Assembly: GCA_944326545.1 (NCBI GenBank)
Contig: CALVEH010000002.1
Span: forward strand, 248,001-312,000
Direction: 5' to 3'
DNA: 64,000 nt
DNA from: Candidatus Gastranaerophilales bacterium
GTDB taxonomy: Bacteria > Cyanobacteriota > Vampirovibrionia > Gastranaerophilales > Gastranaerophilaceae
The notes below the pieces were generated by a model. It did no database searches and was not told the origin of the DNA. It saw nothing but the letters and a program-made list of their open reading frames with translations. Of the stretch, positions 8,612 through 56,790 are shown in pieces (positions within the stretch are counted from its first letter, which is position 1; each line of letters opens with the position of its first letter). The position numbers and the translations under genes were made by a program.

Positions 8612-9538
8612 ATGATAAAATACGCTGTTAATTTAATAAAGAACACTTTTCACCCCTTACAAATAGCAGAATCAGCTCATGTTGAGCACGGTCAGCTTGT
8701 TCTTGTGAGAACAGAAAAAGGTGAAGAAGTTGCAAAGGTTTTTGCCGTTAACCCAATGATTGCGAAATGTTGGGAAAAGAAAATGCCTGAAGCCGTACCC
8801 TTAATAAGAGTTTTAGGCAAACAAGATATGCAAACACTTGAAGAAATAAAAATTGCAGAGGAAGAGGCTTTTAAAATATGTAAAAGTCTTGTTGCTCAGC
8901 ATAACCTTTGTATGAATCTTGTTCAAACAAAATACACTTTTGACAGAAGAAAAATCACATTTTATTATACAGCGCCTGAAAGAGTTGATTTTAGAGCACT
9001 TTTAAAAGATTTAACACAAGCGTTCAAACGTGTAAGAATAGACTTGCGTCACATCGGCGTAAGAGATGAAACTTCTATTTTAGAAGGTAACGGACTTTGC
9101 GGAAGACCGTTTTGCTGCTGCTCTTTTTTAAGAAAATTTGACTCTATAAACATAAAACTTGCAAAAGACCAAGGTATGCCGATTACACCTGGAAAAATTT
9201 CAGGAACTTGCGGCAGACTTTTGTGCTGTCTTAACTACGAATACAAAAACTACATTGATGCAGCCAAAGATATGCCGCCTATCGGTTGTGGTGTTATGAC
9301 GCCTGATGGTCTTGGCAGAGTTTGTTCATTGCATTTCTTATGTAATGAAATTGCTGTTAAAACAGAAGACGGCAAAATTAAAAACTTCAAAAAAGAAGAA
9401 CTTGAAATGGTTGACTCTGACGTTAATATCGATATTGATATTTCAGATACAAACAATTTGTATCAGGAACAATCAGATTACAATGTTGATATAAAACAGT
9501 TGGAAGATGATAGAAACAGTTCTACAGGCAATGTTTAA
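8612..9538 (+). CDS. ricT: PSP1-domain protein, RicT (YaaT)-like
   Basis: Homologue of Bacillus RicT/YaaT, which with RicA and RicF forms an iron-sulfur complex acting on RNA maturation with RNase Y and on phosphorelay signalling. The PSP1 core is clear: GEEVAKV near the N-terminus, RVDFRALLKDL in the middle, then two Cys clusters, CGRPFCCCSFL and CGRLLCCLNYE. The last 50 residues are acidic and probably disordered. AGGAT precedes the start. It is followed after 27 bp by the FlhA-like gene; ricA and ricF are not seen. Confidence 0.92.
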   Translation: MIKYAVNLIKNTFHPLQIAESAHVEHGQLVLVRTEKGEEVAKVFAVNPMIAKCWEKKMPEAVPLIRVLGKQDMQTLEEIKIAEEEAFKICKSLVAQHNLCMNLVQTKYTFDRRKITFYYTAPERVDFRALLKDLTQAFKRVRIDLRHIGVRDETSILEGNGLCGRPFCCCSFLRKFDSINIKLAKDQGMPITPGKISGTCGRLLCCLNYEYKNYIDAAKDMPPIGCGVMTPDGLGRVCSLHFLCNEIAVKTEDGKIKNFKKEELEMVDSDVNIDIDISDTNNLYQEQSDYNVDIKQLEDDRNSSTGNV

Positions 9539-9565: not shown

Positions 9566-11026
9566 ATGAAATCAACAAGAATGCAATACTGTATAAAGTC
9601 AGTGCCAAGTGATGATACATACAAAATGGAATCACTGCTTAACGAAATGTCTTCAGAAGGCTGGGAGCTCTACACAATGCATGAGGTCGAAGGTGACGAA
9701 GGCTTTAACTACAACTGCATTTTTGTTAAAGAAGCAGAAATAGCTCAAGAAGATGAAGACGATGAAGAAATAGAATTCGGCTACAAATCACAAATGCAAA
9801 AAATTATTTCTGCTCAAAATGAGCCCTTTGAAAAATGTCTTGATATTCAAACAAAAATTAAAGATAAAAGAAAAAGAATTAACAGCATAAAATCTCTTAT
9901 TGATGAAACAACAGAAACACAAAGACAAGAACTCAACAATGAAATGTCTAAAAACCTTGAAGAATTACATGAACTAAAAAAACAGCTTCAAAAGACAATT
10001 TCGCCAGAGATAATGCTCGACAAAATCGGCGAAGATAAAATAAAAATTAAACTCAGCGAAGAAAATATCGAACTTGTTAATCCTGATATGGATGCAAACC
10101 TTGTTGCTCAAACCGTTAAAGTTAGACAAGAGCTAACAGAAGAACTTGGTTATATCATCCCTAAAATCAGATTTGAAAATGATGATACTCTGCAGGCAAA
10201 CGAGTTTGAAATCGATGTAAGAGGGGTATGTGCAGCAAAAGGTGTTGTTTACTGCGGTTATAAAATGTATTTTCAAGATGACCTAAAACTTGATAAACCC
10301 TCAAAAGATTTTATCAAAGACTCTGACCCTATCACAGGAAAAAATATTCTTTGGATTCCAGAAGAAAAAACAAAGGATTTTTGGGCCGCAGGCTACAATC
10401 CTTCTGAGGTTATCGCCCGTATATTAGAATACGTTTGCATCAAAAATGTAGAAGAAATCTTTGACTATAACGATATTAACAACTACATTGAAATTGTTAG
10501 TGAGACAAACCTCTACCTTATAGAAAACATTATTCCTGATTTTGTTTCTATTGCAGAATTAAAATACATACTAACAAGCCTTATCAAAGAGCGTGTATCC
10601 ATAAAAGATATTGTTTATATTTTTGAAAAAATCAACGATTTTGCAGACGAAGAGACAAAAGAAGATTTGTTGAGCAGAGTAAGACACTCACTCTCAAGAC
10701 AGATATCAAAAAGCATAGCAAATGAAAACAATCTCATTCAAGCTTTTGAACTGTCTGAAGAAACGGTCAAGTATCTTTCTGCAAAAGTTGCAGGTAAAAA
10801 TGTTGTAATTAGAATTGACAACTCAAAAATGAAAACAGTTGTTAATAATATTTACAAAGTTATAGATAAGAACAACATAAACGCCGATGAGATAGTTGTT
10901 ATTGTTCCTATGGAAATAAGACAGGTGACAAGCGTTGTGCTTTCTCAACTTATGCCTTCTGTTAAAGTTGTTGCAAAAGAAGAAATTGCAAACGGCTATA
11001 CATTAGAAATTTATGACAGAGTGTAA
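9566..11026 (+). CDS. Soluble protein: DUF4177-like domain, coiled coil, FlhA/FHIPEP cytosolic domain
   Basis: 486 residues without membrane segments. Residues 1-55 resemble DUF4177 (LNEMSSEGWELY). Residues about 90-145 are charged heptad-like coiled coil. From about 175 to the end it aligns with the cytosolic export-gate domain of FlhA/SctV: LGYIIPKIRF and NEFEIDVRGV (compare LG..IPPIRI, NEY.IKI.GV), GKNILWIPEE, AGYNPSEVIA, LTSLIKERVSIKDIVYIFE (compare LQNLL.E.VSIRDL..ILE), VRHSLSRQI, and a final VVIVPMEIRQ block. The eight-helix membrane part of FlhA is absent. It is probably co-transcribed with ricT. No flagellar or type III genes are nearby. The homology is recognised from motifs; the role is unknown. 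Confidence 0.8.
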   Translation: MKSTRMQYCIKSVPSDDTYKMESLLNEMSSEGWELYTMHEVEGDEGFNYNCIFVKEAEIAQEDEDDEEIEFGYKSQMQKIISAQNEPFEKCLDIQTKIKDKRKRINSIKSLIDETTETQRQELNNEMSKNLEELHELKKQLQKTISPEIMLDKIGEDKIKIKLSEENIELVNPDMDANLVAQTVKVRQELTEELGYIIPKIRFENDDTLQANEFEIDVRGVCAAKGVVYCGYKMYFQDDLKLDKPSKDFIKDSDPITGKNILWIPEEKTKDFWAAGYNPSEVIARILEYVCIKNVEEIFDYNDINNYIEIVSETNLYLIENIIPDFVSIAELKYILTSLIKERVSIKDIVYIFEKINDFADEETKEDLLSRVRHSLSRQISKSIANENNLIQAFELSEETVKYLSAKVAGKNVVIRIDNSKMKTVVNNIYKVIDKNNINADEIVVIVPMEIRQVTSVVLSQLMPSVKVVAKEEIANGYTLEIYDRV

Positions 11027-11097: not shown

Positions 11098-11796
11098 ATG
11101 CAAATACCTAAAATATCACCTGACAAAGTAAGAAAAAACTTTGAAATATTTTTATCTCAAACAGAAAAAAAACTAAACCGAGGACAAAAAACAGATATAA
11201 AAGATTTTTCAACAGACTTGTATAGGTTTAGTTCTGCTTTTGAAAAAACACCAGAAGCAGACATTCTTGTAAAAAAAGCCAACCAGTTTGCCGAAAAGTT
11301 TACAAGTAATGGAAATAACAACTTCGCCGGTGTTATTTACAGCTTTTTGCTCAAGGTTGTTAAAAACCCTAAAATTGTTGAAACTCTTGCAGTAAAACAA
11401 CTTGCTATTGCAAAAAGAACTAACGACCCTATCCACATAATGGCTAGAACAGCAGACATAAGAAAAGTCTACCAGGAAATAGTACCAAACAGCCTTGAAC
11501 ATTTGAAATGGCTAAGAGAAGAAGTAAGAAGTATAAGAAAAGTAATAAACCATTACGAACACTCAACAAAAAACTATAAATCAGTATCTCGTGACGTCAG
11601 ACCAAAAGAATTTTATGAAGAAATGCTTGGTTTTATCTTGGTTGATGTAGGGAAAATTCTAAAAAAACAAAGCCCTAAAGAAGCCATGCCTGTAATGCTT
11701 GAAGCAAAAGAAATTTTTGCAAAATTGAATAATGAAAAAGCTTTAGATTTTGTAAACCAACTCATTAAAGAAACTGAACCAAAGCTAAAAAAATAA
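11098..11796 (+). CDS. Unknown 232-aa helical protein
   Basis: I do not recognise it. The sequence is rich in Lys, Glu and Leu and appears all-helical, with spacing reminiscent of TPR-like helical pairs (about residues 40-110 and 170-230). There is no signal peptide, membrane segment or cysteine cluster. It lies 71 bp after the FlhA-like gene in the same direction and may share its transcript. The region before its start (GAAAGCGAG) gives only a weak ribosome site. It ends three bases before the converging tRNA-Thr gene. Confidence 0.8.
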   Translation: MQIPKISPDKVRKNFEIFLSQTEKKLNRGQKTDIKDFSTDLYRFSSAFEKTPEADILVKKANQFAEKFTSNGNNNFAGVIYSFLLKVVKNPKIVETLAVKQLAIAKRTNDPIHIMARTADIRKVYQEIVPNSLEHLKWLREEVRSIRKVINHYEHSTKNYKSVSRDVRPKEFYEEMLGFILVDVGKILKKQSPKEAMPVMLEAKEIFAKLNNEKALDFVNQLIKETEPKLKK

Positions 11797-13736: not shown

Positions 13737-14291
13737 TTAAGGATTAAAATAATCAATCATTATTTTTTGAAACTCATCACACATATCCTTAGCAGACTTT
13801 CTTACATTTTCAGGATTATGAATCTCTTGCAATATCTTTTTTGCATCTCCCTTTGCAAAATAAGAAAAATTAGATTTACAATCAAACGAATCCAAATATT
13901 TTTCACCCATTTTTAGTTCAGAATCAGGTGTTTTGGACAATTTAGAAAACAATTGCGATAATTTCGAAAATATCGGCAAATTGGCATCATTTAATACCAA
14001 AGGCCTGTAATTCAACCAAAATTCTTTTTTCGTTTTATTTAAAGATTCAACAAAATACTTATCATAGTGAAAAATTATTGTATTTTTCTGACAATCATTA
14101 GGAAACTTTCTTAAAATCTCACCAAAAGTACTTAAATCTTTTTCTCCTACGTCATTCAATGTTGTTGAAAGTGTAAGATGCACATATTTAGGCCTTTTAA
14201 AAAGCAAATTACCTTTCAATATTTGTTTGCTTTCTTTATTTATATCTACACCTATGCCGGTATTTCTAAATCCTTTAAAACTTATATCCAT
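13737..14291 (-). CDS. Unknown 184-aa protein with N-terminal SFKG tag
   Basis: No family recognised. It begins MDISFKGF, one of the set of proteins in this window with an early F-K-G motif. The rest is mixed alpha/beta and Lys-rich, with a central LTLSTTLNDVG strand region and helical C-terminal part; there is no signal peptide or membrane helix. It sits between the GH32 gene and a membrane protein on the same strand, with gaps of about 50-90 bp, so linkage is uncertain. Confidence 0.75.
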   Translation of the reverse strand: MDISFKGFRNTGIGVDINKESKQILKGNLLFKRPKYVHLTLSTTLNDVGEKDLSTFGEILRKFPNDCQKNTIIFHYDKYFVESLNKTKKEFWLNYRPLVLNDANLPIFSKLSQLFSKLSKTPDSELKMGEKYLDSFDCKSNFSYFAKGDAKKILQEIHNPENVRKSAKDMCDEFQKIMIDYFNP

Positions 14292-17192: not shown

Positions 17193-17627
17193 ATGTCAAT
17201 GAGCATCAGACCAATTGCAGCAACAAACGTATCAAATGTTTCAAAAATTTCTGCAAACAACGTAGCGTTCAAAGCAAATGAAGAAAAACCGGCAGAGAAA
17301 GCTGACACAGTAGAAATTTCTAAAAAAGAATTAACTACTGAAGATAAACAAAAAATTCTTCAAAAAGCAAGACAAAAAGCCGCAGGTTATGCATTTTTCG
17401 GCAGCTTTTGGAGTACATTGTATTACGGTTTAAGATCTGACGAAAAAGTTGCTAAAAAATACAACCTTGATGCAGAAAAAGACAAATCTTTAGTAAAACA
17501 AATTAAACGTGAACAATTTTACGCCACCTTACCTTCTGTAATTCCAGGTATGCAATTTGTTGGTGGTGCAGTCGCATATATCTATTGCAGAAACACTGAT
17601 CCATCTGATATCAAAGTAAAAGGATAA
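17193..17627 (+). CDS. Unknown 144-aa protein with early AFKAN motif
   Basis: No family recognised. A low-complexity Ser/Asn/Val-rich N-terminus (about 22 residues) leads to NVAFKANEE, similar to the tag of other proteins in this window. A charged Lys/Glu segment follows, then a domain with two hydrophobic stretches (AAGYAFFGSFWSTLYYGL and VIPGMQFVGGAVAYIY) that could span or line a membrane. AAAGGT lies just before the start. It is monocistronic, divergent from leuC, and closed by a terminator. Confidence 0.8.
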   Translation: MSMSIRPIAATNVSNVSKISANNVAFKANEEKPAEKADTVEISKKELTTEDKQKILQKARQKAAGYAFFGSFWSTLYYGLRSDEKVAKKYNLDAEKDKSLVKQIKREQFYATLPSVIPGMQFVGGAVAYIYCRNTDPSDIKVKG

Positions 17628-17853: not shown

Positions 17854-17999
17854 ATTTTACATTATTTCATCTTCTAAAAAATTCTTGTGTAAACCAAAAG
17901 AGATTAAACATATTTTTCAAACTCAGTAATTAAGATGAGTTCAAATCTTTTGTGGGATATTATAATGTATTTGTATATTTACCCCACGGAATATAGTTG

Positions 18000-20900
18000 A
18001 TGAATTGTCCCAAATGTAAAACCCCAATATCCGAGAAAGATTTAATATGTCCTAAATGCAAAAGAGTCATTAGGATTCAATGCCATACTTGCGACAACAT
18101 CACCAAAAACACGATATGCGAAAAATGCGGCACAGTGCTTGTAAACAAATGCTATAAGTGTGGAAAATTAAACTCAACAACACTGGAAAATTGTCCAAAA
18201 TGCGGGCTTAACATCAACGCAAGCATCGGTCTTAGAGAATCAGTTATTGAAGAATTTGCTGTTTTAACAATAGAAGTCACAAACTTTGAAGACATCAAAA
18301 CAGCATTCAAAAGCGATAAAATAACAGAACAATTTAAATACAACCTATATTCGGTAATAAAAAAGACTGCATCACAAAAAAAACTCAGGGTACAATTCAT
18401 TGATGACACATACATTATAAGATTCTGCAAAGATTTCAGTTTTGAAGAATCCTGCAAATCTGCTATAGATTTTTCAATTTACGTAGCACAAACTGTTAGC
18501 GAAATAAATAAAAAACTTTTTGAAGCCAAAGGCGTAGAGCTAAAAGTTCAAATGGCTGTACAAAAAAGAGATGTTTATTCAAAACCGTCTGAGTACAAAT
18601 CAGGACTAAACATAAACGTAGTTTACTCTTCAAGCGGAAAAGGACACTTGTACAACAATACAGAAGTAGTTGTTGACTCTTACATATATCAACAGACCAA
18701 ACTTCAATACCCGTTCCAATCATTGAGTGCAGTATTTGTCAAAAACCAGATGGTCATGTTCTTTGAACTGGTATTACACAAAATCATCCAGCCGGAAGAA
18801 GAAACAGAAAAAACAATTGAGGTTAACCAAGTAAAACTTCCTAAAAACATCGATTTTGAACCTGAAGAAGAAGTTGATGATGAACAATTAATCAACTTTG
18901 ACAGTTTAAACTGTACATTTTTAAGAGCAAAACAAGAAAACATAGCAACAGAACTTGAAAAAATTGCAGCTAAAAATATGCTTAACCCAATTATTTCGGT
19001 ACGTTCCGAAGAAAGATTGGGCAAGCTTGCTCTTTGTGACAATGACAAATTAAAAGAAGTATTCAGTGATTACAACCTAATAAGATTTTCTTGTTCTAAA
19101 AATAACAAATACAGCGCTTACGGATTAATGAAAGAAATGCTGTTAGCATACCGCGGCATAGACGAATTGAGTATGTTGCTTAACAACGACTTACTTGATG
19201 CGGTGTCATCAGATGTTCATTTGTTAGAACTTTTTAGAATGGAAATAAAAGAACAAGTCCACCCCGAAGACTTGAGATACAGTTATTATGAAGCCTTCAC
19301 AAATTTCATAGCTTCAATACCTTACAAAACAATATTTGTAATAGAAGATTTTGAAAATACTGATGAAGGGTCATTAGAAATTATCAAATATCTTTGTGAA
19401 AATAAAAAGCTTGGCAATGTCGGATTTTTAATTTCTTGTGATATCAAATATTCTCTTCACAGAAAAATATACAAGCTAATGACTGCGCCAAACTACTACG
19501 ATATAGAGCTAAAACCTTCTTCAAATAAACGAATAGTAGCTGAAAAGCTTCAAGTATTAAAACACATTCAGGATTCTTTCTTTGTTGAAAAGGCATTGGA
19601 AAACACAAAAGGTTCATTCTTCTACTTTGATACAGCATTAAAATATCTTGTTGACGACGAAATATTGAAAATATCAGAAGGTAAATACGAAATTGCCAAA
19701 GACAGAATGATTGTAATTCCAAAAGACTTGAATGAATTAATTCAAAAAAGAATTCATCATCTACAAGTAAAACCAAACGCCTACGAGTTCTACGCATCAC
19801 TTCTTTTACTCGGTGAAAAGAACGAATTTTCTAATATACACAAACTAGGTTTCAAAGAAGACATAAAATTAGTTAAATATCTTGAAAAAAAAGAATTCAT
19901 AAAAGTTGTTGATGACAAAGAAATCATCATAAAAGACTTTAATATATACAGCAAAAACTTCTTAGAAATTTGTCCTCAGGAAAAATTAATTGAAATATCG
20001 AAAAATATTTTAGAGTCGATATATCTGGATGAACAAATACCAAACTGCAATAAGGCAAGATTGCTTGAATTTGCAAAACTCAAAAAAGAAGCATTTGCTC
20101 AATGGCACGCACTGGCTATGATATCAAGCCAAAGCGGCGATTTTTGCGCATATTTAAACTGCACAAACAAATTCCTTTCACTTGTTGATAACGTAATTGA
20201 TGCAGAAACTGACAAAACAGTAGAACAAGTAAAAATGGATGTATATTCAGAACTTGCATCAATGATGTACAAGTATTACCCGGACAAAATACGCAGCTTT
20301 TTAGAAACTCTTTTGACAAATCTGGAAGCGCAAAATGATGACCAAAGAATTAAAGAAGTAGCTAACAAGCTTGTCCAAAGCTGTTTGATGAGCGGAAACT
20401 ATAATAATGCACTTGAATACATAGGTAAAATTATTTCAAGAACACCAAGAAGCTCTTTTAACCCTGCTGATGAAAACTTCAACCTAAATTACTTCTTAGT
20501 AAATCTTGTCACACTTGAAATTTACTTCAATCTTGGAAGATTAAACGAATGTATAGAACTCGGTGACGAACTATTCAAATACATCGATTTGGCAACTATT
20601 ACAGACAATGTTCTACCGGAAGGTTTTTCTAAAAAACAATTTGAAGAAGCCCTCTGTGATGCAATGTTCTTTGTTTGCATTTCCAGAATAATACTTCTAA
20701 AACCAGACAGAGTAGATGTATTAATTGACTTTGAAGACAGAACAAAAACAAGATTTACGTTCTTTAAACTATTGTATTTGCTCAACGAATTTTTAGAGGG
20801 CAAAAACATTGTTGAGCCAATGAATCAAATAGCAAATAGCGGACTAAAAGACAAATACTCACAAATTTTATTTCCACTAATTCAAGGCTTAATTGCGGCA

Positions 20901-21494
20901 AATTACCAAGACTGGAACAATTTAGGCAACTACACTTATAATGCTAAACTTGTTGCTGCAATTTTAAATCAACATCAGCTTGAATATTTTGCTGATTTAA
21001 TGATTGGTTTTGCATACCAAAATCTTGGTAATACCAAAAAAGCGAAACAAATCTATTACAATATTCTTGATATAGCAGAAGAAAAAGGTATAAAAAACAT
21101 AATATACCTAAGCTGGATTCTCATCGCAAAAGCAGAATTCCAAGACGGTAACATTGATATGTCAGTAGGCATAATCAACAACTCAATTTTACATCTGGAA
21201 AAAGATTCAGATGCATCAGAATTCTTTGTTATTTTATTTAAGGCTCTATCAGCAGAAATAATGATTTACACAAAATCTAACATAGAAAAAGCAATGTTCT
21301 GTGCAGAACAATCTTTTGAAACATCTTTAAAAGATAAACTTAACATATACTTACCACAATTTGCTAATATGCTCTTATTTATTTATAATACAATCGCAGC
21401 AGGCAACAAATCACCTCAAGTTATACAAGTTATCAAACAAAAAACTAACTATATAAAACAGGTGATGAATACAAGAGTCAGACCGAAAAAATAA
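18000..21494 (+). CDS. Large protein: zinc ribbons, degenerate class III cyclase domain, degenerate ATPase, TPR-like helices
   Basis: 1164 residues. Residues 1-70 hold five or six CxxC pairs (zinc ribbons). Residues about 83-255 follow the class III nucleotide cyclase fold, but the first metal Asp is Glu92 (LTIEVTNF); IDDTYIIRF at 134-142 keeps a second Asp. Residues about 300-640 have the layout of the STAND-type ATPase that often follows such cyclases, but the P-loop is degraded (SVRSEERLGKLAL), while a Walker B-like FVIEDF (446-451) remains. The C-terminal half is TPR-like helical repeat. It is probably a regulatory scaffold rather than an enzyme. I start at ATG (GGA ten bases before). The next gene starts 14 bases after its stop. 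Confidence 0.82.
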   Translation: MNCPKCKTPISEKDLICPKCKRVIRIQCHTCDNITKNTICEKCGTVLVNKCYKCGKLNSTTLENCPKCGLNINASIGLRESVIEEFAVLTIEVTNFEDIKTAFKSDKITEQFKYNLYSVIKKTASQKKLRVQFIDDTYIIRFCKDFSFEESCKSAIDFSIYVAQTVSEINKKLFEAKGVELKVQMAVQKRDVYSKPSEYKSGLNINVVYSSSGKGHLYNNTEVVVDSYIYQQTKLQYPFQSLSAVFVKNQMVMFFELVLHKIIQPEEETEKTIEVNQVKLPKNIDFEPEEEVDDEQLINFDSLNCTFLRAKQENIATELEKIAAKNMLNPIISVRSEERLGKLALCDNDKLKEVFSDYNLIRFSCSKNNKYSAYGLMKEMLLAYRGIDELSMLLNNDLLDAVSSDVHLLELFRMEIKEQVHPEDLRYSYYEAFTNFIASIPYKTIFVIEDFENTDEGSLEIIKYLCENKKLGNVGFLISCDIKYSLHRKIYKLMTAPNYYDIELKPSSNKRIVAEKLQVLKHIQDSFFVEKALENTKGSFFYFDTALKYLVDDEILKISEGKYEIAKDRMIVIPKDLNELIQKRIHHLQVKPNAYEFYASLLLLGEKNEFSNIHKLGFKEDIKLVKYLEKKEFIKVVDDKEIIIKDFNIYSKNFLEICPQEKLIEISKNILESIYLDEQIPNCNKARLLEFAKLKKEAFAQWHALAMISSQSGDFCAYLNCTNKFLSLVDNVIDAETDKTVEQVKMDVYSELASMMYKYYPDKIRSFLETLLTNLEAQNDDQRIKEVANKLVQSCLMSGNYNNALEYIGKIISRTPRSSFNPADENFNLNYFLVNLVTLEIYFNLGRLNECIELGDELFKYIDLATITDNVLPEGFSKKQFEEALCDAMFFVCISRIILLKPDRVDVLIDFEDRTKTRFTFFKLLYLLNEFLEGKNIVEPMNQIANSGLKDKYSQILFPLIQGLIAANYQDWNNLGNYTYNAKLVAAILNQHQLEYFADLMIGFAYQNLGNTKKAKQIYYNILDIAEEKGIKNIIYLSWILIAKAEFQDGNIDMSVGIINNSILHLEKDSDASEFFVILFKALSAEIMIYTKSNIEKAMFCAEQSFETSLKDKLNIYLPQFANMLLFIYNTIAAGNKSPQVIQVIKQKTNYIKQVMNTRVRPKK

Positions 21495-40656: not shown

Positions 40657-40974
40657 ATGCCGATAAATGCAGTATCTCCCGTAAGTTTTAAGGGAGTATA
40701 TTATACAAAGAGCGCAGAAGCTTTGTGTTCACCAAAAGCAAAACAAAAAATCAGCGCATTAGCCAAAGATCCTCGTTCTAATTACGAAAAAGATGTTTTT
40801 GTAGAAGCGTTTTCACCTGAAAACAACGCCGAACCTGTTGTAAAGGTAGATGTTTATAACTTATATGCGCCTATTTATAAATACGGTGTATTAGAAAGCA
40901 TAGACAGAGTGCACGAAAAAACATATTTCCGCTCAGCAAAAGATTTTGGCGCAGTGCCTATGACAAGAAAATAA
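40657..40974 (+). CDS. Small unknown protein with N-terminal PVSFKG tag, 105 aa
   Basis: No family recognised. It opens MPINAVSPVSFKGVYYTK, one of the clearest cases of the N-terminal F-K-G motif. The rest is a compact soluble protein with several aromatic residues (VYNLYAPIYKYG) and no membrane helix. GAAAGGT precedes the start and a TATAAT lies at about 40605. Its stop abuts the converging dapB stop with no gap. Confidence 0.8.
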   Translation: MPINAVSPVSFKGVYYTKSAEALCSPKAKQKISALAKDPRSNYEKDVFVEAFSPENNAEPVVKVDVYNLYAPIYKYGVLESIDRVHEKTYFRSAKDFGAVPMTRK

Positions 40975-47974: not shown

Positions 47975-50155
47975 CTAAACTTTTTCAGGTTCTTCTGTAT
48001 CAGGAGTTTTTAGCATTTTTTCAAAGTAATCGAGCCTGTCTATCAGGTCTTTTTGTGTGCTTAAATCATCTCCGTCACACACAACCTTAGATATTACAGG
48101 GCGTTTGAGTTCTTCAGGCATGTTGAGAGCAACTTTATTCACGCCTTCATCTCCGGGTTTCCATTCAAGAGCTTTGTAATAATCTTCTTGATAGTTTTTC
48201 TTCATACGCAGTTTCCAGTTATTTGGGTTTTGAGTTCCTGCGTTGTTATAAGTTTTATCAAGCCCAAAGAAATCCATAAATGTTAATTGAATTTTTTGAG
48301 CAAATCTGAACATCTCTTCAAATTTGAGTTTAACTCTCAAGCGTCTGTCCCATTTGAGTTGTTCCATTATTTTAGAACGCTCATCATTCGTTTTTTCAGG
48401 ATACAAGCTGCCTACGATATAAGCTTCTTCATAAATGCCGTTAGGACAGTTCTTTTGTGCATAGAAATTGTCATCACAGACTTGTGCAAACGGGCCATGA
48501 TCGTGGCATCCGAGTATTACCGTATTGTTTTGGTGTCTTGGGTCTGCCAGACGTTTTTGTATTTGCCACTCATAAGCTGAAGTAATCTCAGGGATGTAAT
48601 GACCGTCACGGTTTTTATTGAATACTTCTCTGAATTTTTGTGTGTCACAGCCTAAAGTTTCCCAAGCCATATCCTCAGGGTTTACGCCTTTTTCTTCGAA
48701 CAACGGTAATAAGATTTCATCCAAAATCTTTGCATAATCGCCATCTGGGTCGAGGTCAGGCATGTTTTTTATGTCATCATTTATTTGGTCCGTAATATAA
48801 GGGTCCCAGCCTCTATCATAGCCAAACACGTGGTCTTTATGAATCATGCTTATATTTGCGCCATGTGCGTTTCTGTAAATAACGTGTTCAGGGACTGACG
48901 GGTCTTCTTCTGGATATCTGCCGACTTTGACTTCAACACGGTTTTTGTTGTAAATCCACGGGTCAATAAGCCCGATTGCGTGATCAATCCTTATATTTTC
49001 GTAAGTATCTAAAAGCTTTTCAAACTTTTGTCTTATAAGTTTGCCAGCAGGTCCTAGTCCTGTAATATTTCCTGATTCGTCTTTTACAAAAAGCTTTTTA
49101 GGGTCAACAACAGGTATATCCCAAGTTTGGTTATTGCCCCAAGGAGAACCGTTGCCTATTGCTCGGCCTTCCCCGCCGTATGGTGTTCCTACTCTAAATC
49201 CGGGTAAAAAGGCATCTTTGTGGGCATAGTAATCCATCATGTGGAAGCCAATGATAGCATCTGTGCTGTACTGGAGCTTGCCATGCTGCGATTTGAATTC
49301 GTGTTCCTGTTTATCAACAATGAACTGTTTGAATTTATAAATATCCAAGTCTTTTTTATACTTTTTATTAAAAAGTCTATAGTACTCTAAAGCTTCGTCA
49401 TGGAATGGAGACTCTTTGTCTTCTTTGTAATCAAAAAGGTTTCTGCACATGTCAGGCCATTCAAAGAAATTGTCATCCATTCTTAATAAATTGCGCATCT
49501 GTACAAAAACAGCGTCTTTTTCTAGCCAATCGTTTTGATCTTTTTTAAATTGTTGAAATTCCTTGTTAAGTTTTAGCGCAGACGTGTCACCTGATTTTAC
49601 TTTCTTAGCAAGATTTACGTACGCCTTGTCATATAACTTATCAACAACATAAAAAGCTTTGTTAAAGTTGGTTTGATCAGAATTTGCCTCATATGTTGCA
49701 TCTTTATCAACATTTCTTATAACATCGGCAATATCGTCTTGAGTGTCGTTTACAGTGAGGATATTAGCGTATTCATCCGTTGCCAATTTTTCCATATCCG
49801 TATAAAGATAATTTTTAGAGTTGATAGAAGACTGGTATGGTGAAAGCTTTGTTAACCCCGGAGGCCCTAACTGTATTGAGTCAAAACCATGGAATTTTAA
49901 AAACTTATTAAGCTCCAAAGCTTTTGAATTTATGTGAGAACCTATAAACAAATCTTTATCCTTAACAGGGAAAGATGATTGATGCAAAATCAGTGCCAAG
50001 TTTTTTATACCCAAAAAATCTTTTGCATCTGCAATGGCTTTAGGGTATTCTTCCACCTCTGATTTACCGTTCCAAGGTACTTTTACATCCTCTCTTGGGG
50101 CACGTTTGAATGAAGGTGCAGTGTAATAAGTGTTGGTTAAATTTAAAATTCGCAT
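47975..50155 (-). CDS. malQ: GH77 amylomaltase-like (4-alpha-glucanotransferase) with N-terminal APSFKR tag
   Basis: Transfers maltosyl or longer alpha-1,4-glucans in glycogen or maltodextrin metabolism. 726 residues. GH77 elements: LGPPG and SPYQ at the acceptor side, the nucleophile in RIDHAIGL, the acid/base Glu in DMAWETLG, and the third carboxylate in CHDHGPF. The first 23 residues are an extension, MRILNLTNTYYTAPSFKR, which carries the tag motif found on unrelated proteins in this window. A classical signal peptide is lacking. The ribosome site is weak. No glycogen operon surrounds it. Confidence 0.88.
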   Translation of the reverse strand: MRILNLTNTYYTAPSFKRAPREDVKVPWNGKSEVEEYPKAIADAKDFLGIKNLALILHQSSFPVKDKDLFIGSHINSKALELNKFLKFHGFDSIQLGPPGLTKLSPYQSSINSKNYLYTDMEKLATDEYANILTVNDTQDDIADVIRNVDKDATYEANSDQTNFNKAFYVVDKLYDKAYVNLAKKVKSGDTSALKLNKEFQQFKKDQNDWLEKDAVFVQMRNLLRMDDNFFEWPDMCRNLFDYKEDKESPFHDEALEYYRLFNKKYKKDLDIYKFKQFIVDKQEHEFKSQHGKLQYSTDAIIGFHMMDYYAHKDAFLPGFRVGTPYGGEGRAIGNGSPWGNNQTWDIPVVDPKKLFVKDESGNITGLGPAGKLIRQKFEKLLDTYENIRIDHAIGLIDPWIYNKNRVEVKVGRYPEEDPSVPEHVIYRNAHGANISMIHKDHVFGYDRGWDPYITDQINDDIKNMPDLDPDGDYAKILDEILLPLFEEKGVNPEDMAWETLGCDTQKFREVFNKNRDGHYIPEITSAYEWQIQKRLADPRHQNNTVILGCHDHGPFAQVCDDNFYAQKNCPNGIYEEAYIVGSLYPEKTNDERSKIMEQLKWDRRLRVKLKFEEMFRFAQKIQLTFMDFFGLDKTYNNAGTQNPNNWKLRMKKNYQEDYYKALEWKPGDEGVNKVALNMPEELKRPVISKVVCDGDDLSTQKDLIDRLDYFEKMLKTPDTEEPEKV

Positions 50156-55441: not shown

Positions 55442-56221
55442 TTATTCGATAGAATTTATGGATTTAAGATAATAAACAGCTCTGCTTACATTGTCATAAT
55501 CTTTTTCGCTCAATATCGGACATCTGAATTCATCATAAGGAATTTCGTAGCATTTTTTACCAATAGCGGGTAAAAGATTTTCCATTAATTCTTCATAAGC
55601 TTGATAAGAATTGCCAAATTTTGGCGCTTTGTCTACAAAATCTGCACCGCCTATATTTCCATCCAGGTAGTACAAAGTTCTGTTCAAGACAGTTTCCATT
55701 TTTGCATATCTGTCTTCCGGCAAACTTTTTGAAATACCTACTAGTCTTTCGTCTCCTTTTGTAGAACAAAACATATTCTTTATCTTAGCTTTTACATTTG
55801 CAAAGGCAGAGTCTGCTGCAACTTGTCTTTCTTTTGGTTCCATCAAATCCACAGTAACAAAGGTTTGTTTGCCAAAATGATTATGGTCATCATTAAAGAA
55901 AATTTTGTTATAAGTAGTATCATATTTTTTTGAATGAAAGAAATCATCAATATCCCCGCCTATTGCAAGAAATTTTCCGTTGCCGAGATTGGATGATTCG
56001 AGTTTTTTGCCTATAATTTCCTCAACTTTTTGTTGGAATTTTACCGTATCTCGCCCGTATACATTTTCTTTATACCCAATAGATTGGAGAGTATCACTTG
56101 CCGCTTTTAGAAGTTCTCCGTCTTGCTTTTTGGTTGTTTTATATGTTTGAGTTGAAAAACTTCCATTTTCTCTGGATTTTACAGTAATAAGGCCTTTAAA
56201 AGACAGAGGGGAAATAGACAT
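55442..56221 (-). CDS. Unknown 259-aa protein with N-terminal LSFKG tag
   Basis: It opens MSISPLSFKGLITVKS. The rest is soluble, mixed alpha/beta, with an aromatic-rich FFNDDHNHFGKQTFVTVD centre and no recognised family. AAGGAG eight bases before the ATG fixes the start; an 11-codon extension upstream overlaps that site and is rejected. It follows another tagged gene (56317) on the same strand, with a perfect palindrome between. Confidence 0.8.
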   Translation of the reverse strand: MSISPLSFKGLITVKSRENGSFSTQTYKTTKKQDGELLKAASDTLQSIGYKENVYGRDTVKFQQKVEEIIGKKLESSNLGNGKFLAIGGDIDDFFHSKKYDTTYNKIFFNDDHNHFGKQTFVTVDLMEPKERQVAADSAFANVKAKIKNMFCSTKGDERLVGISKSLPEDRYAKMETVLNRTLYYLDGNIGGADFVDKAPKFGNSYQAYEELMENLLPAIGKKCYEIPYDEFRCPILSEKDYDNVSRAVYYLKSINSIE

Positions 56222-56262
56222 GTGATTCTCCTTATGTTGTTGTGTTGCTTGCACAAAAACAC

Positions 56263-56316: not shown

Positions 56317-56790
56317 TTAATAATTAGAACTCGGTGGAACTTTAGTCTTTTCGTATTTTTTTATTAATCTTGGCAGCCACTCAGTAAGGAGTTCATTGTA
56401 CTTTTTAATATATTTTTCATCAGAAATTTTACAAGGATAATTTCCTGTTGAATAAAAAGCAAAATCCTTATCATTTTTTACGTGCATAATTTCAAACTCG
56501 TTAAGCTCTTCGCCTTTTTTAGTTAGCCTCACCTTATGCCAAGATGAGTTGTTATATAAAAATTCAAATTCTTTGTTTCCGTTTTTAACACGGATGACAA
56601 CAGGTTCCGGATTCAAACGGTCGTAAGACTTATGAGCAATGCTTGCACATTTTTCCACATATCCTTGATTTTCTTTTGTAAGAATTTCTTTTACTTTAAT
56701 AAATTTATCTAAAACTTTGCCTATTCTATCAATCAAACTTCCTGAAAATGAAGGCGCGTAATAATTACTTTTGTATGAGTCTATTTTCAT
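56317..56790 (-). CDS. Unknown 157-aa protein with N-terminal APSFSG tag
   Basis: It begins MKIDSYKSNYYAPSFSGS. The Tyr-rich run before the motif resembles that of the GH77 enzyme (TNTYYTAPSFKR). The rest is soluble and Lys/Tyr-rich with an early amphipathic helix and a beta part (VVIRVKNGNKEFEFLYNN). No family recognised. The ribosome site is weak. Confidence 0.77.
   Translation of the reverse strand: MKIDSYKSNYYAPSFSGSLIDRIGKVLDKFIKVKEILTKENQGYVEKCASIAHKSYDRLNPEPVVIRVKNGNKEFEFLYNNSSWHKVRLTKKGEELNEFEIMHVKNDKDFAFYSTGNYPCKISDEKYIKKYNELLTEWLPRLIKKYEKTKVPPSSNY

Follow-up and report, generated by a model that had tools for sequence, protein, structure and literature searches.

A membrane-free FlhA/SctV-type cytosolic domain with a DUF4177-like head in the order Gastranaerophilales

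The gene and its domain plan

The open reading frame at 9566–11026 (+ strand) of the window, by which the whole analysed stretch of 64 000 nucleotides is meant, is unbroken, starts with ATG and comprises 486 codons. The subdomain borders given below were carried over from the layout of Salmonella FlhA, and Salmonella residue numbers (D456, F459, L461, W465, T490) were taken from the sequence alignment.

8612–9538, + strand: ricT (PSP1/RicT_YaaT family), 27 bp upstream of the soluble FlhA-C gene
9566–11026, + strand: whole gene, 486 amino acids; DUF4177-like head, helical hairpin and soluble FlhA/SctV-type cytosolic domain
9566–9739, + strand: DUF4177-like head, residues 1–58, beta-alpha-beta-beta (profile matches and its own model)
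9740–9823, + strand: acidic spacer containing EDEDDEEIE, residues 59–86, low model confidence (pLDDT < 50 for residues 61–82)
9824–9997, + strand: helical hairpin, residues 87–112 and 117–144 (AlphaFold2 model)
10004–10255, + strand: linker end and first part of FlhA-C D1, residues 147–230, with S164 in place of the GYXLI glycine
10256–10399, + strand: FlhA-C D2, residues 231–278 (alignment); D254, equivalent to Salmonella D456, retained, F459 and L461 positions altered
10400–10459, + strand: second part of FlhA-C D1, residues 279–298, with R285 and a small hydrophobic residue for T490–H491
10460–10699, + strand: FlhA-C D3, residues 299–378, highest conservation in the family
10700–11023, + strand: FlhA-C D4 and C-terminus, residues 379–486, lowest conservation in the family
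11098–11796, + strand: 232-residue open reading frame of unknown family, downstream of the soluble FlhA-C gene

FlhA and SctV are membrane-anchored nonamers in which a cytosolic ring docks cargo. The product of 9566–11026 is, with near certainty, the cytosolic domain of such a protein (FlhA-C) without its membrane anchor. It matched the Pfam family FHIPEP (PF00771) with an E value of 1.5e-53 (182.7 bits against a cutoff of 29.1), and because residues 122–476 aligned with profile positions 300–654 of 657 only, the eight-TM N-terminal membrane half of the family is missing; no membrane segment was detected anywhere in the protein (highest 19-residue Kyte–Doolittle mean 1.4). The NCBIfam models FlhA (1.6e-48) and SctV (1e-26) were also matched, both well under their full-length cutoffs. 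A sequence search of the PDB returned FlhA cytosolic domains as the best solved relatives, and the match to Bacillus subtilis FlhA-C (3mix) rose from 1e-26 to 3e-45 when the family profile was used as the query. An AlphaFold2 model generated with 28 family members as input (pLDDT 79.8) was superposed by Foldseek on FlhA-C 6ch2 over 336 columns and all four subdomains (E = 1.2e-22, TM score 0.82 by target length), and the top 50 matches were FlhA or SctV without exception. A soluble FlhA-C preceded by a DUF4177-like head and a coiled coil had been proposed in an earlier sequence-only reading, with a structural comparison as its check; profile, fold and selection (see below) all agree with that description. 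It placed the cytosolic domain at residues ∼175–486, but homology to FlhA begins further towards the N-terminus: the linker region (residues ∼122–157) is also retained, and the second arm of the hairpin overlaps the FlhA-linker homologue (aligned to residues 320–345 of FlhA2, described below).

Compared with the solved FlhA-C structures (PDB entries 3mix, 6ch1–3 and 3a5i), the protein is alike in its four-subdomain fold, linker homologue and D3 core and in an Asp and a Trp equivalent to D456 and W465, both of which the soluble family retains. It differs in carrying the head and the hairpin instead of the membrane half and in having lost the GYXLI glycine, T490–H491 and the hydrophobic residues of the cleft. 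In the family F459 is replaced by Thr, L461 by Lys and T490–H491 by Arg plus a small hydrophobic residue, which leaves the D456 equivalent as the sole survivor of the chaperone-cleft set D456/F459/L461/T490; residues of this cleft dock flagellar chaperones onto FlhA (PMC5932034). The GYXLI glycine, required for the open–close motion of FlhA (PMC9431611), is Ser164 in 95% of the soluble family, whereas every FlhA2 and flagellar FlhA protein compared has Gly here, and further residues fixed in both FlhA types have been lost. W263, W273 and G276 of D2 are invariant. Mean pairwise identity within the family was highest in D3 (65%) and lowest in D4 (36%); D3 is 37% identical to that of FlhA2. The gates of injectisomes (SctV; InvA, CdsV, YscV) have the same cytosolic fold but score below FlhA, and no injectisome-specific operon was seen.

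The head matched DUF4177 (PF13783) with an E value of 0.017 within the whole protein and, taken alone, with 19.3 bits, under the Pfam gathering cutoff of 25; the same weak match was obtained for 27 of 28 family members. It also matched the NCBIfam model Sp36_fam (4.5e-5). Modelled alone, it formed a beta-alpha-beta-beta unit with a pLDDT of 89, for which nothing significant was found among PDB folds (the best match, with an E value of 0.02, was the KCTD5 C-terminal domain, with dodecins lower). The LLNEMS..GWELY core is shared with DUF4177 proteins such as B. subtilis YjzH. DUF4177 proteins are normally tiny and stand-alone, whereas here the head is fused to FlhA-C.

Distribution, selection and ancestry

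Related stretches were found at 216 places in genome contigs; the best 80 of these, mostly from Candidatus Gastranaerophilales records, were 43–98% identical over practically the full length, head included. The soluble protein was present in nearly every Gastranaerophilales genome sampled, G134 being the sole one in which it was not found, and in the phylum sample full-length matches (at least 620 bits among the matches listed) were confined to this order. In the genomes sampled from sister families of the class no such protein was detected, and the matches there were limited to complete FHIPEPs or a small piece of the C-terminus. The start and the domain plan are the same throughout the order. 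Estimates of dN/dS were 0.02–0.05 (about 0.03), most pairs being near saturation at synonymous sites, and 0.03–0.05 in pairs with usable synonymous divergence; these ratios indicate that the protein is under strong purifying selection across the Gastranaerophilales. Its identity to the pair of full FHIPEPs encoded in its own genome is 24–29%. The missing membrane half is what might be expected of an assembly error, a gene fragment or a decaying duplicate of a full FlhA, the outcome that the sequence-only reading had named as its own refutation; this origin is itself refuted by the intact frame, the order-wide occurrence, the constant start and domain plan, the low dN/dS and the low identity to the full copies.

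The two full FHIPEPs of the genome (G000) are a flagellar FlhA (contig C1) and a second protein, here termed FlhA2 (contig C4, 151313–153412). With the profile of the soluble family, FlhA2 proteins of the order scored 227–252 bits, FlhA2-type proteins of sister families 187–225 bits and the flagellar FlhA of the same genome 124 bits. A maximum-likelihood tree was built from 60 cytosolic domains. In this tree the soluble proteins formed a single clade (support 100/100) with a long stem branch (1.52 changes per site) on the FlhA2 side, which was itself split from flagellar FlhA at 100/100; the branching order inside the FlhA2 side was not firm (80/99). By score and tree FlhA2 is the nearest relative, and its linker is alignable; it differs in being a complete membrane gate within an export operon and is 29% identical to the soluble protein. 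Sequence comparison identifies the soluble protein as a paralogue of the cytosolic half of FlhA2 (linker plus C-domain), and an origin from flagellar FlhA was ruled out by the tree and the profile scores.

Other divergent FlhA-C proteins also fell on the FlhA2 side of the tree. In G148, from another class, an HTH_17 domain is joined to a TM-less FlhA-C (L153 4315–5556) encoded divergently from fliP-fliQ-fliR-flhB, which makes a regulator sensing the export gate possible. A 593-residue protein of G041 (L185 1462–3243) begins with a region similar to the product encoded at the FliG position in the FlhA2 operon (BLASTP 3e-9; see below), followed by two probable TM helices and an FlhA-C without D2. 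In both, FlhA-C has likewise been freed from the membrane half and lies beside or is fused to products of export genes, but the heads are different and the proteins are independent or far more divergent branches. Further FlhA-C-like proteins of 215–509 residues were seen in G045, G073, G083, G016, G096 and G127. Short or TM-bearing, fast-evolving ones in the same size range are encoded in the order at L158, L187, L191, L193 and L186, and several such proteins occur together in some genomes. Three distinct TM-less FlhA-C-like proteins are encoded in G162, from another class of the phylum (L155 3629–5410, L156 1657–3114 and L157 1773–3089).

A second export apparatus and its relation to the soluble gene

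The sequence-only reading had noted the lack of flagellar or type III genes, which is true of the window; the search of the genome that it proposed revealed both a flagellar set and a second apparatus, and with the latter FlhA2, of which the soluble protein is a paralogue. The flagellar FlhA on C1 has FliI-, FliH-, FliG- and FliF-like genes nearby. The FlhA2 operon on C4 has the order FliF2, a 333-residue protein in the FliG position, FliH2, FlhA2, FliI2, with Pfam matches for FliF2 (PF01514, 1e-32), FliH2 (8e-23), FlhA2 (2e-218) and FliI2 (T3SS_ATPase_C, 9e-28). The 333-residue protein (L084 10508–11509) had no Pfam match and is likely to be a diverged FliG or its replacement. A separate block contains FliM/N-like, FliO, FliP2, FliQ2 and FliR2 genes. 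The loci of the second apparatus are L084 8811–15777 (G000, C4), L144 10351–14471 (G000, C12), L087 and L088. Between fliQ2 and fliR2 (L144 13330–13692) a 120-residue secreted-looking protein with a weak T2SS-T3SS_pil_N/AMIN-like match is encoded, which might be linked to an outer-membrane secretin.

In G012 and G001 a FliE-like gene precedes the FlhA2 block, and in G012 it is also preceded by FlgB-like, FlgC-like and two FlgG-like genes and a lytic transglycosylase-like gene. These genes were named from sequence by eye; in several genomes that lack flagellar FlhA, genes of this kind are backed by rod-domain matches of ∼21–31 bits. No filament genes were seen with the second apparatus, although rod-type genes are present. 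With its flagellar-type FliE-, FlgB/FlgC/FlgG-like and FliO genes the apparatus differs from injectisomes.

An FHIPEP was found in all 146 genomes of the order; the flagellar type (about 860–890 bits) occurred in only some of them and the FlhA2 type (about 710–736 bits) in nearly all. FliP followed suit, with a flagellar type of 260–277 bits in some genomes and FliP2 (228–244 bits) nearly throughout. The second apparatus is thus near-universal in the order and extends to genomes that have no flagellar genes. Each of the non-flagellar genomes examined encoded a single FliI-type ATPase and a single full FlhB. In G045 and G121 FlhA2 seemed to be missing; because the neighbouring FliF2 is missing too, and FliP2 and FlhB are retained, an assembly gap is likelier than a loss. 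Such genomes have been described as carrying partial flagellar gene sets (PMC4040986, PMC3787301), and it appears that a complete second export machine was read in earlier work as incomplete flagella; a literature search, incomplete in coverage, returned no paper naming the second apparatus.

In G000 the soluble gene lies outside the FlhA2 operon. Its link to ricT, noted in the sequence-only reading, is real here and in close relatives, but of the 89 loci compared only about 22 have ricT just before it. In other lineages its neighbours include genes resembling BamA, Skp or a nucleoside phosphorylase; no neighbour was constant among the 89 loci, and a fixed ricT operon was ruled out, as neighbours vary between genera. 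In seven of 81 genomes (three genera) no more than 12 kb separates the soluble gene from fliP2; in a genome of 1.9 Mb, chance would place two unrelated genes this close in about 1% of cases. The seven genomes are not independent and the signal, a modest one, emerged after three partner genes had been examined, so that this linkage is at most suggestive of an association. In G001 the FliI2 gene is ∼14 kb from the soluble gene. Co-distribution has low power because nearly all genomes carry both the soluble protein and the apparatus. G134 retains FlhA2, FliP2, FliF2, FliI2 and FlhB without the soluble protein, and the apparatus is therefore not strictly dependent on it.

Possible role of the soluble protein

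The reading that we favour, with a probability of roughly 0.5, is that of a cytosolic accessory that serves the second apparatus in docking or regulation but does not itself gate. Its fold and homology, paralogy with FlhA2, co-distribution, the linkage to fliP2 and FliI2, the precedents of detached FlhA-C proteins, the selection and the conservation of D3 were counted in favour; the altered chaperone cleft, the separate operon, the varying neighbours and G134 were counted against. The protein would remain in the cytosol and work with the second apparatus, the changed D1–D2 cleft binding substrates, chaperones or FliH2, FliI2 or the FliG-position protein. D3 mediates ring contacts in SctV rings, and the conserved D3 may serve self-association or association with the FlhA2 ring. 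The protein would hold, sort or hand over cargo. On its own it is unable to conduct protons or to form a channel, and the glycine behind the open–close motion of FlhA is lost. The substrate-binding platform suggested at the outset is possible, but the cleft that canonically receives chaperones has changed and the switch glycine is gone. A bolder version, in which the protein is devoted to adapting cargo or chaperones to, or to regulating at the level of the ring, a rod-bearing, filament-less type III apparatus that is universal in Gastranaerophilales, previously unrecognised and mistaken for incomplete flagella, is less likely than not.

The main alternative is neofunctionalisation without any role in secretion, the FlhA-C fold serving as a scaffold, for example in RNA handling together with the DUF4177-like head. 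The product of ricT is a partner of RNase Y, and the adjacency of ricT in close relatives would fit, as would the long stem branch, the absence of residues that are fixed in flagellar FlhA and FlhA2 alike and the presence of YjzH, a DUF4177 protein, among listed candidate RNA-binding proteins (PMC12456014). The ricT adjacency is limited to one set of lineages, however, D3 is still the best conserved part, there is some linkage to fliP2 and other FlhA-C paralogues without a gate occur together with export genes; we regard this alternative as rather doubtful. An inhibitor or assembly factor that does not carry cargo but uses D3 to enter or cap the FlhA2 ring, stopping export or setting its timing, would account for the conservation of D3, and a mixed ring lacking the GYXLI glycine in some subunits would be stiff, given the role of this residue (PMC9431611); with D3 domains 37% identical, the soluble protein and FlhA2 may be too different to assemble together, and such a factor seems unlikely.

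It had also been speculated that the soluble protein recognises an N-terminal tag seen on other proteins of the window. Tagged proteins (13737–14291, 17193–17627, 40657–40974, 47975–50155, 55442–56254 and 56317–56790) start with a short polar stretch followed by SFKG, SFSG, AFKA or SFKR. The SFKG-like motif was modestly enriched at N-termini, both in the window (five of 52 proteins against three of 261 internal windows, p = 0.004) and at other loci of the order (p = 0.005), and was found in none of 113 proteins of the sister family f8; a loose first version of the motif and a strict DNA pattern for the tag were both poorly informative. A function as tag receptor is unsupported, since N-termini with the tag (small counts), such as one that ends in PTFKA, are still encoded in G134, where the soluble protein was not found. 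Also encoded in the window, at 17997–21494, is a protein of 1165 residues in which double zinc ribbons are combined with TPR repeats and what is probably a nucleotide-binding region.

A docking domain freed from a second, apparently non-flagellar gate and fixed throughout a whole order would mean that docking is separable from gating, and the soluble FlhA-C is a natural construct for studying this separation. Its wider interest is that it points to a complete, order-wide second export machine in uncultured, mostly gut-dwelling relatives of the cyanobacteria. If this machine works, these commensals may have an unexamined route of protein export to their surroundings.
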